Program-made: the position numbers and the translations under genes
Assembly (NCBI GenBank): GCA_029225165.1
Contig: JAQXVY010000014.1
Location: forward strand, 1-64,000
DNA: 64,000 nucleotides
Direction: 5' to 3'
Source of the DNA: Oscillospiraceae bacterium
GTDB lineage: Bacteria; Bacillota; Clostridia; Oscillospirales; Acutalibacteraceae
Notes under the pieces: generated by a model
Database searches by the model: none
Told to the model about the DNA's origin: nothing
What the model saw: only the letters and a program-made list of their open reading frames with translations
Shown here: positions 4,437 through 63,510 of the stretch, in pieces
Numbering within the stretch: the first letter of the stretch is position 1
Layout: every line of letters begins with the position of its first letter

Positions 4437-4595
4437 GGAAACACTGAATAAATCACTTTACACATCTTGTTTGCATATTTTCCGCCGGTATGCCCAAAAA
4501 ATCCTCGCAATACGCCAGTATTCCTGCGGTTTTTTGAACATACCGACAAAAAATCTGACTGCACAATCTGTGCAAATGATTTAATCAGTGTTTCC
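4437..4595 (+). repeat. 159-bp palindromic interspersed element, copy A
   Basis: Begins GGAAACACTGA and ends TCAGTGTTTCC. The left arm aligns with the reverse complement of the right arm over the whole length, so the single strand would fold into one long imperfect hairpin. Flanked by TTAA on both sides. It starts six bases past the stop of the nif3-like gene. Two other copies of exactly the same length lie at 6204 and 19869. No transposase is encoded; it resembles a MITE or a REP/ERIC-like structured repeat. Small ORFs in the track here are by-products. Confidence 0.9.
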
Positions 4596-6203: not shown

Positions 6204-6362
6204 GGAAACACTGACTAAATCACTTTACAAATCTTGTTTGCATATTTTCCGCCGCTTAGCCCAAAAAATCCTCGCAATACGTCAGTATTCCTGCGGTTTT
6301 TTGAACTAATCGACAAAAAATCTGACTGCACAATCTGTGCAAATGATTTAGTCAGTGTTTCC
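6204..6362 (+). repeat. 159-bp palindromic interspersed element, copy B
   Basis: Same orientation and length as copy A, with about 10 differences. Several differences are paired between the arms: the stem TATG/CATA in copy A is TTAG/CTAA here. It lies just upstream of the ribosome-binding site of the DUF1858-trmK-nif3 operon. No clear target-site duplication. Confidence 0.9.
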
Positions 6363-11863: not shown

Positions 11864-12345
11864 TGTTGACGGTAAACATAATTTGTATAGGTAAACTAAA
11901 AGAAAAATATTGGGTAGACGCAATTAAGGAGTACAGCAAGCGACTTTCTTCATTCTGCAAATTTTCTGTCATTGAGCTTTCAGAGTGCAAGGTGAACTCC
12001 GACCCAAACGAAAAGCAGATTCAGCACATTTTGCAGGAGGAGGGAAGTGCAATCCTCCAAAAGATAAAGCCCACTGACTACACCGTTGCTATGTGCATTG
12101 AGGGTAAGGTTATATCCTCACCCCAATTATCCAGCCTTGTTGACAATGTTCAGCTTGACGGAAAAAGCACCCTGAACTTTATAATCGGCGGAAGTTGGGG
12201 ACTTTCCGAGGAGGTTAAGCAAAGGGCAGACTTTAAGCTGTCTATGGGGAAAATGACCTTCCCTCACCAAATGGCAAGGGTAATGCTTACGGAGCAGATT
12301 TACCGCAGTTTCCAAATCAGCAGTAACGGAAAATATCACAAGTAA
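11863..12345 (+). CDS. rlmH: 23S rRNA (pseudouridine(1915)-N(3))-methyltransferase
   Basis: SPOUT-class methyltransferase that methylates pseudouridine 1915 of 23S rRNA in the assembled 70S ribosome. 160 residues, normal length. Signatures: N-terminal IICIGKLKEKYW, the SAM-knot region FIIGGSWGLSEEVKQRAD and the C-terminal KMTFPHQMARVMLTEQIYR. The tryptophan in GGSWG replaces the more usual small residue. Translationally coupled to the walJ-like gene. A 17-base match to the end of the 159-bp element begins with the last base of its stop codon. Confidence 0.95.
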   Translation: MLTVNIICIGKLKEKYWVDAIKEYSKRLSSFCKFSVIELSECKVNSDPNEKQIQHILQEEGSAILQKIKPTDYTVAMCIEGKVISSPQLSSLVDNVQLDGKSTLNFIIGGSWGLSEEVKQRADFKLSMGKMTFPHQMARVMLTEQIYRSFQISSNGKYHK

Positions 12346-12361
12346 TTTATTCAGTGTTTCC
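12345..12361 (+). repeat. Solo end of the 159-bp element
   Basis: ATTTATTCAGTGTTTCC, identical over 17 bases to the right-hand end of copy C, overlapping the last base of the rlmH stop. No partner arm is found nearby. Either a decayed copy or a minimal end sequence. Confidence 0.55.
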
Positions 12362-16095: not shown

Positions 16096-16690
16096 GTTAT
16101 GCGAGTGTGTTTACTCCTTTTGTCATCTCAAGCCACCAAAATGTCATCCCGAGCTTGTCGAGGAATCCCCTACCTGTACCACCCATTTTGTTAGAGTAAC
16201 CATACTTTCATATTACCTATTAGTGTCGATTTAGGCACTACTGCTATCCTTTCAGATTCTTCGGTCGTTTCACCTCCTCGGAATGACAGGGGTAGAGTTT
16301 TTTGGAATACATCCAGCCTCCCTCAGACGAGTATTCCCTTGCTAAGGGAAATGTCACGAAGTGACAAAGGGTTTGCCGTTTTCGCCAGAAAAAGGGGGAC
16401 CGCTTGCGGTGGAAGGAGGAAAAAAGTGTTCTCTTTTGCTTGTTTTGTCTTTAGAGGATAGTATGGTTATGTGTTCTTATTCATACTGTGACATCTAAAG
16501 ACATACCAAGATATATTGACTACTTTTTCACTCCCTCCGTCACGGCAAAAGCCGTGCCACCTCCCTCATCCGATGGAGGCTTTGTTTAGTTCGTAATATC
16601 ATATAACCTGATAGCGTAGATTTAGGTGCTACTGCTTTCCTTTCAGATTTCCCTGTCTTTACCACTAATTTTTTAGGAGAATAGGTGTGT
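16096..16690. repeat. Mosaic of interspersed repeats, no gene
   Basis: About 600 bases without a gene. Blocks seen: 16142-16291, bounded by GTCATCCCGAG and CGGAATGAC, whose core 16209-16290 is the reverse complement of 59865-59947; 16599-16650, a diverged second copy of that core; 16318-16425, with GCTAAGGGAAATGTCACGAA and two flanking CCTCC/GGAGG ends; and 16530-16580, with a CACGGCAAAAGCCGTG palindrome. These look like dispersed intergenic repeats stacked between two converging genes. Confidence 0.7.
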
Positions 16691-19859: not shown

Positions 19860-19868
19860 GAAGTTTAG

Positions 19869-20027
19869 GGAAACACTGATTAAATCATTTGCACAGATTG
19901 TGCTGTCAGATTTTTTGTCGGTATGTTCAAAAAACCGCAGGAATACTGACGTATTGTGAGGATTTTTTGGGCATACCGGCAGAAAATATGCGTACAAGAT
20001 GTGTAAAGTGATTTATTCAGTGTTTCC
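19869..20027 (-). repeat. 159-bp palindromic interspersed element, copy C
   Basis: Inverted relative to copies A and B, exactly the same length, about six differences from A. It sits between trmD and the HPr-like gene. Confidence 0.9.
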
Positions 20028-20155
20028 TTAAATAGGAAACCGCAAATACTTGTGCCGAAAGTACAAAAATCATTGTAAGTTTTCGTCGTATTGCACAAGA
20101 AAAAGATTTTAAATTTCTTTGTGAATGTGTAGTGAAACGAATTTGAAAAATAAGG

Positions 20156-25825: not shown

Positions 25826-26092
25826 CGCAAAAAAATCGCCCCTAAATGTAGGGACGAATAAATATCCGTGGTACCACCCAAATTCAAGCATATGTCACCA
25901 TATACTCCTTACAGACTTCCAGCAAAGTCCTGACAAATAACGGTGTCAACCGTCACGGCCTTATAAGCCGCAAAACTCCGGGATGAGCTATACATATAAG
26001 TTCTGCGTCTGTTTTACACCAAACAACAGCTCTCTTGGCACAGGGGCTTATATCTTGTTCCCTTCACAGTTTTTAAGGGCTATCTTTTTGTC
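25826..26092 (-). promoter_or_regulatory. T-box riboswitch (tRNA-Leu) in the leuA leader
   Basis: Read on the minus strand: stem I with the AGAGAGCTG and GGTGTAAAACAG elements, then the T-box core GGGTGGTACCACGG, then a terminator stem CGTCCCTA / TAGGGGCG followed by ATTTTTTT. The specifier is a leucine codon on either reading of stem I: CTC in the internal loop AGCTCATC (preferred), or CTT in GAACTTATA. The bulge TGGT pairs with ACCA, matching the A discriminator of tRNA-Leu. Uncharged tRNA-Leu should allow read-through into leuA. Confidence 0.93.
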
Positions 26093-32796: not shown

Positions 32797-32803
32797 GTAA
32801 AAT

Positions 32804-32820
32804 ATTCAGTGTTTCCTTAA
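32804..32820 (+). repeat. Solo end of the 159-bp element
   Basis: ATTCAGTGTTTCCTTAA, 17 bases identical to the end of copy C and its flank, abutting the stop codon of the dockerin protease on the minus strand. Confidence 0.5.
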
Positions 32821-63333: not shown

Positions 63334-63364
63334 TTTAATTAGGTATTAGCTACTTTAGTTAATA

Positions 63365-63510
63365 TAAAAAATCGCTGTTCTAAAGACAGCAGGTGCGTTT
63401 TGCATAAGTATTTTACGCCTGCCGAGGAAGAAGCTAAAAATTACTTTGTAATTATTACTGCCTCTCCTCGGGAAACCAAGGAGAGGTTTTCTTTTGAACT
63501 GCGTATAAAA
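63365..63510 (+). ncRNA. L10 (rplJ) leader
   Basis: Structured leader between rplA and rplJ. Seen: a long arm with CAGGTGCGTTTTGCATAAG pairing with ACGCCTG, then CTCTCCT / AGGAGAG forming a terminator-like hairpin followed by GTTTTCTTTTG. This matches the L10 leader, to which the L10(L12)4 complex binds to repress translation or elongation. Confidence 0.85.

Follow-up and report, generated by a model that had tools for sequence, protein, structure and literature searches.

The stretch analysed here (the window) comprises positions 1 to 64,000 of contig JAQXVY010000014.1 from the Oscillospiraceae bacterium assembly GCA_029225165.1, and contains three copies (A, B and C) of a palindromic mobile element (Table 1). 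One end of copy B adjoins a Shine-Dalgarno-like AGGAGG upstream of a small gene on the minus strand, and copy C lies 10 bp past the stop codon of a trmD-like open reading frame (ORF). A preliminary description had placed three 159-bp copies at these positions, each an imperfect inverted repeat from end to end, and the coordinates, lengths and repeat structure were confirmed for all three. Comparison of the copies also bore out the changes reported on both arms of the palindrome, namely TATG/CATA in copy A replaced by TTAG/CTAA in copy B, and an outer A-A mismatch in copy A that is a C-G pair in copy B. Two further features had not been described: copy C is reversed relative to the other two, and good folding is confined to one strand of the element. 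For copy A, the folding energy was -78.1 kcal/mol on the minus strand versus -53.5 kcal/mol on the plus strand (z of -12.2 and -8.2, respectively, against shuffled sequences).

The window belongs to a Ruminococcus-like draft genome (1.97 Mb, 61 contigs, 88% completeness) in which about 40 near-full copies with 87-100% identity were found. A search for the 19-bp end with up to three mismatches gave 78 forward and 89 reverse matches, and the reversed control pattern gave 0 and 2. Shortened derivatives of 107, 119, 59, 54, 48 and 27 bp were present in the same draft, together with one 318-bp form. As nearly all of the genomes used are drafts and the elements break assemblies, copy numbers are lower bounds. 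With a length of 159 bp, about 40 copies and GGAAACACTGANTAAATCA at both ends, the element has the attributes of bacterial miniature inverted-repeat transposable elements (MITEs), which are shorter than 200 bp, multicopy and bounded by terminal inverted repeats.

In 57 of 106 copies, identical 4-mers were found on the two flanks, where random re-pairing of the flanks gives an expectation of 11.6 and, over 1000 rounds, a maximum of 21. The target duplications included CTAA/TTAG, TTAA, CAAG/CTTG and TAAA/TTTA, amongst others. The draft genome behind the Ruminococcus sp. SUG987 record (G075) aligns to the window region at about 92%, and the sites matching those of copies A, B and C are all empty there. 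G075 carries about 40 copies at other places, and only five insertions were seen in common with the window's genome. The ends and duplication of the element match those of IS5 elements found in the loci L263 and L384, and a 4-bp duplication of the YTAR type fits IS5 elements. The duplications, the IS5-type ends and the empty sites together identify the 159-bp repeat as a mobile MITE and not a fixed RNA gene, a fixed host RNA gene being ruled out by the empty sites in G075. The preliminary description had argued against the neutral decay of a transposon remnant. The element is transposable, and what stands of that argument is the evidence, given below, for selection on its fold.

The IS5-family element in L263, a contig from a viral collection, is 1263 bp long (NF033581, 2e-96), has the ends GGAAACACTGATTAA and GGAAGCACTGATTAAATC and is flanked by TTAG duplications. 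Relatives with similar ends were found in the same order (L384, L385 and L395), and the genome that contains L384 (G409), from the same family, has both an IS5 element with such ends and many copies of the MITE. Of the autonomous element that the preliminary description had proposed looking for, the fetched loci contained no copy, and no plasmid match was obtained. Within the genus, an IS1182-type partner was ruled out by its different ends (GTGACACCCTCAG), and none of the IS5 elements at the loci checked had matching ends. For the window's genome, we infer the identity of the transposase.

Several arrangements involving these elements were also recorded. In G075, two full copies lie in tandem with 4 bp (TTAG) between them (L186:1501-1822), as if one had entered the duplication of the other. 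An IS5-family element with the ends GGTAACCTCTAAAAA and an ATAA duplication (L278:1324-2717, genome G115) is directly beside a MITE that bears the conserved core described below and has the ends GGCAACACCGCAC and the same ATAA. Three viral-collection contigs (L261:1510-1648, L264:532-670 and L266:2247-2407) contain MITEs with the same ends and diverged or different interiors, the one in L266 being a weak covariance-model match (46 bits). A full element (131 bits) was found inside a phage genome record from human faeces (L269, MT835572.1), which is a possible route between hosts. Three minimal forms of 27 bp, GGAAACACTGA-NNNNN-TCAGTGTTTCC, have one end joined straight to the other (L083:2510-2536, L061:4526-4552 and L085:2507-2533), and two of them keep TTAA on both flanks. 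Long forms of 169-173 bp carry an extra small inverted repeat in one arm (GCT..AGC, ATC..GAT or GTC..GAC, A2 columns 143-154) that is missing from the 159-bp form.

The search of relatives with a covariance model that the preliminary description had suggested revealed many copies well beyond the genus. Model R1, run on 200 genomes from 135 genera of the family, matched 31 genomes in 29 genera, and model R2, run on 394 genomes from 168 genera of the order, matched 90 genomes in 51 genera. Since any hairpin might be matched by a model built on a long one, the primary sequence was also checked. The fetched cross-genus elements showed BLAST homology to the family, mostly in the interior, down to 1e-44 and, in further loci, 1e-48, which rules out matches by structure only. 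Confirmation at the sequence level covers five families (f1, f13, f14, f17 and f26), with the remaining families found by the model alone, and weak matches under about 75 bits were sequence-checked in part.

The conserved interior, or core, makes up about 105 nt of the 159-172 of the element, and its landmarks are CAGATTTTTCGTCAG, CAAAAA..CGCAGG-stem-CAAGG/CGAGG and ATGACGGAAAATATGCAAGCAAG. It is found in MITEs whose ends are of three or more different types, with interiors homologous by BLAST (to 1e-35). Two of these types, GGAAACACTGATTA and GGCAACACCGCACA, mostly have 4-bp duplications, while the third, GAGCCTGTTCAG, is flanked by 3-bp TAA/TGA sequences read directly from the flanks. Further end types, such as CTAATACCTAATTA and GTCGTTTCACCCCA, were found in single genomes. 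As a check against a circular call of the strand, orientation was also set from BLAST alone and agreed with the model in 56 of 56 cases. The strand set in this way was the more stable one in 55 of the 56, and in all 17 further loci, which came mostly from other families. No element gave a match above the gathering score in Rfam, the sub-threshold matches being mainly to eukaryotic microRNA-type families. Our literature search found no paper on a Ruminococcus MITE or on this core, and no description of one conserved core common to MITEs with different ends.

A single transition within a palindrome produces a G.U pair on one strand and an A.C mismatch on the other, with an equal chance of either. 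Among 35 diverse copies, 16 columns carried G.U on the well-folding strand and none was dominated by A.C. Across genera there were 33 G.U-dominated columns versus 0 A.C-dominated columns and 302 G.U versus 39 A.C cells, and extra Watson-Crick pair types numbered 149 versus 61-75 for slid pairings, in an alignment whose fitting to the structure biases it in that direction. When changes were placed on a tree, with ambiguous ancestral states randomly resolved 200 times (an earlier count from a single resolution depended on ties), G.U was gained 19 times and A.C 5 times on internal branches (p 0.007). On private branches of the two genomes with dense sampling the counts were 40 and 29 (p 0.23). 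Events that kept a pair outnumbered those that broke one by 54 to 33 on internal branches, versus 64 to 95 on those private branches. Private changes in resident copies (12 G.U, 15 A.C and 25 other) showed a weak and non-significant preference for pairing. Strand-specific deamination as the source of the wobble pairs was ruled out, as private changes at paired sites included 30 C>T and 33 G>A. Given a G.U bias that is strong on internal and weak on private branches, it seems that the fold is selected in spreading lineages, and that resident copies decay and are not maintained site by site. In this respect the preliminary description is incomplete.

The paired changes that first drew attention to the element are in large excess. 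In the 35 diverse copies, 24 of the 66 pairs change on both sides, and there were 102 two-sided cells versus 30.7 after shuffling and 7-33 for slid pairings, although kinship among the copies inflates such column-wise tests. On a tree of 104 sequences, 38 two-sided events kept the pair, versus 1-4 for slid pairings. Private branches, on which breaking one side of a pair is tolerated, however, carry two-sided changes too, and internal patches distinguish copies that occupy one and the same site in two genomes. Compensatory changes of several bases at once are documented to result from template switching during replication (PMC8794818). Two-sided changes by themselves are thus no proof of selection, as they can also stem from template switching or from conversion between copies. 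The preliminary description was right about the excess and there is evidence for a selected fold, but the excess alone is insufficient to establish it. Neither a lack of further copies nor a lack of such an excess, the two outcomes it had named as refuting it, was observed. Better evidence comes from the strand-specific wobble bias and from an interior that stays conserved although the transposon ends differ.

We favour, with moderate confidence, the interpretation that this is an IS5-moved MITE with a core that folds on one strand, most likely as RNA, and is selected in spreading lineages. The elements would then form a new MITE superfamily with a conserved, strand-specific core, probably at the RNA level. 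An IS5-type DDE transposase would act in trans on ends like GGAAACACTGATTAAATC and duplicate a 4-bp YTAR-like target. The old, conserved core, most likely as RNA formed upon transcription of the element, would fold on only one of the strands and would retain Watson-Crick or G.U pairing as its sequence changes. Copies that keep the fold would be over-represented among those that spread, while landed copies would mutate almost freely, and template switching inside the palindrome, or conversion from one copy to another, would account at least in part for the block-wise paired changes between copies. We infer that RNA is the folded molecule and that propagation benefits from the fold. Several observations weigh against this interpretation. 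The contrast between internal and private branches in the ratio of G.U to A.C alone is weak (p 0.085, or p 0.002 under one resolution) and can be called suggestive, and the branch counts shift with the way ambiguous ancestral states are resolved. The ancestral strand asymmetry is common to the copies by descent and could, taken alone, be due to chance, with a simulated mutated palindrome reaching it in 1.25% of trials (p 0.0125). Energies for single-stranded DNA favour the same strand (-43 versus -36 kcal/mol), and the elements are oriented at random with respect to the genes that flank them (++ 25, -- 35, p 0.25). No promoter-like site was found within copy A, and no matching transposase was found in the window's draft genome (88% complete) or in G075.

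Alternatively, this could be an ordinary MITE of the IS5 type without selection on any fold, its palindrome kept by template switching and conversion and its strand bias a frozen accident of the founder. This explanation, which we consider rather unlikely, is consistent with the multi-base paired changes that template switching yields (PMC8794818), with their occurrence on private branches tolerant of breakage, with the internal patches that distinguish same-site copies and with the simulated probability of the asymmetry. However, template switching restores Watson-Crick pairs without a preference for either strand and cannot yield columns in ratios of 16:0 and 33:0 or the 19:5 on internal branches, a neutral interior should not remain recognisable over 51 genera and different ends, and the balance of private C>T and G>A changes argues against strand-biased deamination. 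The folded molecule could also be single-stranded DNA, with the hairpin of one strand recognized by a protein in replication or transposition in the manner of attC or REP sites. The DNA energies and an orientation that is neutral to transcription are in keeping with this, as is a slightly negative GC skew of the flanks in the frame of the stable strand (42 of 106 positive, p 0.04; Wilcoxon p 0.12). Yet that evidence for replication polarity is marginal, G.T pairs add little stability to DNA, and the target duplications and IS5-type ends indicate a double-strand DDE mechanism; we consider this explanation improbable.

We think it very improbable that the element is a host regulatory RNA, acting in the processing, stability or termination of mRNA and maintained at each site. 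The copies are intergenic, at a median of 50-60 bp from the neighbouring ORFs, and known MITEs affect mRNA decay (PMC3446304; NEMIS, reviewed in PMC2229807). Against this, private changes in resident copies do not significantly preserve pairs, only about five insertions are common to genomes with 92% identity, and the three insertions in the window are unshared. A role on flanking host mRNAs is disfavoured because of the random orientation and the near-neutral decay. Intrinsic termination as the main function was also ruled out, with one weak terminator-like site only and no orientation preference. Returning to the IS5-moved MITE with a selected fold, a broader version can be put forward tentatively, in which an ancient structured core carried by several IS5-type MITE ends is a mobile RNA found throughout the order and selected at the RNA level for propagation. 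Just as tentatively, the core might bind the transposase or a host factor, or make new insertions tolerable, and the RNA could possibly be the conserved unit, with the transposon ends interchangeable.

Other short mobile repeats share some of these features. The bcr1-bcr3 repeats of the Bacillus cereus group are likewise short, intergenic and MITE-like with tens of copies, and are often transcribed inside untranslated regions or operons (PMC3446304, PMC6542083); a bcr1 family also turned up among stem-loop families, with a conserved structure predicted for it (PMC2267715). Their sequence and host are different, and bcr1 (BCR group A) was ruled out as the element here has no TTTAT motif or target and has the duplications listed above. 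Correia/NEMIS (155/107 bp), ERIC and YPAL are short mobile repeats whose transcripts form long stem-loops (PMC2229807), and Correia/NEMIS resembles the present element in having an internally deleted shorter form, here of 107 bp. Those with 5'-TA-3' termini differ from it in ends and target (PMC2229807). RUP of Streptococcus pneumoniae is thought to be moved in trans by IS630-Spn1, which has matching ends (PMC2229807), whereas the partner here is of the IS5 type with a 4-bp target. REP/RAYT palindromes are similarly repeated and extragenic with strand polarity, but REPs are 20-40 bp long with GTAG/CGTC tags (PMC3733652). The length of 159-172 bp, the target duplications and the GGAAACAC ends ruled out this class, no search for a RAYT gene being made. 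RNA stems maintained by template switching account for multi-base compensatory changes (PMC8794818) but do not predict an excess of G.U over A.C on one strand.

MITEs are usually regarded as little more than borrowed ends plus an interior that can be dispensed with. In the present element that interior is the part conserved best, the ends change, and pairing is kept on one strand only, apparently only during spread. Confirmation would make this a selfish DNA element dependent on a folded RNA, and a clear natural example for telling selection from template switching in the evolution of palindromes. The family is absent from Rfam, is common among the gut bacteria of this order and interrupts many of their assemblies.

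Table 1. Element copies, ends, flanking duplications and solo ends in the window
Feature	Position	Strand	Basis or comment
Element copy A	4437..4595	- (well-folding strand)	covariance model R2, 167 bits (- strand) and 86 bits (+ strand)
Element copy B, TTAG/CTAA stem allele	6204..6362	-	sequence, covariance model R2
Element copy C, opposite in orientation to A and B	19869..20027	+	sequence, covariance model R2
Terminal inverted repeat GGAAACACTGAATAAATCA, copy A	4437..4455	+	end-pattern match
Terminal inverted repeat GGAAACACTGATTAAATCA, copy A	4577..4595	-	end-pattern match
Left 4-bp target duplication of copy A, TTAA	4433..4436	.	
Right 4-bp target duplication of copy A, TTAA	4596..4599	.	
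Conserved interior (core) of copy A, ~103 nt	4466..4568	-	homology to the interiors of MITEs from other genera whose ends differ
TTAG left of copy C	19865..19868	.	right side TTAA at 20028-20031; 3/4 match, decayed duplication
Solo element end CAAG TAA TTTATTCAGTGTTTCC	12343..12361	-	at stop codon of rlmH-like ORF
Solo, degraded element end	32798..32816	-	3 mismatches

Elsewhere in the window, a T-box leader (25847-26076, minus strand) and a ribosomal L10 leader (63362-63501, plus strand) were found above the Rfam gathering scores. A second, unrelated dispersed repeat lies at 16278-16650, is present in G075 in more than 10 copies (80-90% identity) and contains an imperfect 45-nt inverted repeat (16411-16455 and 16494-16538).
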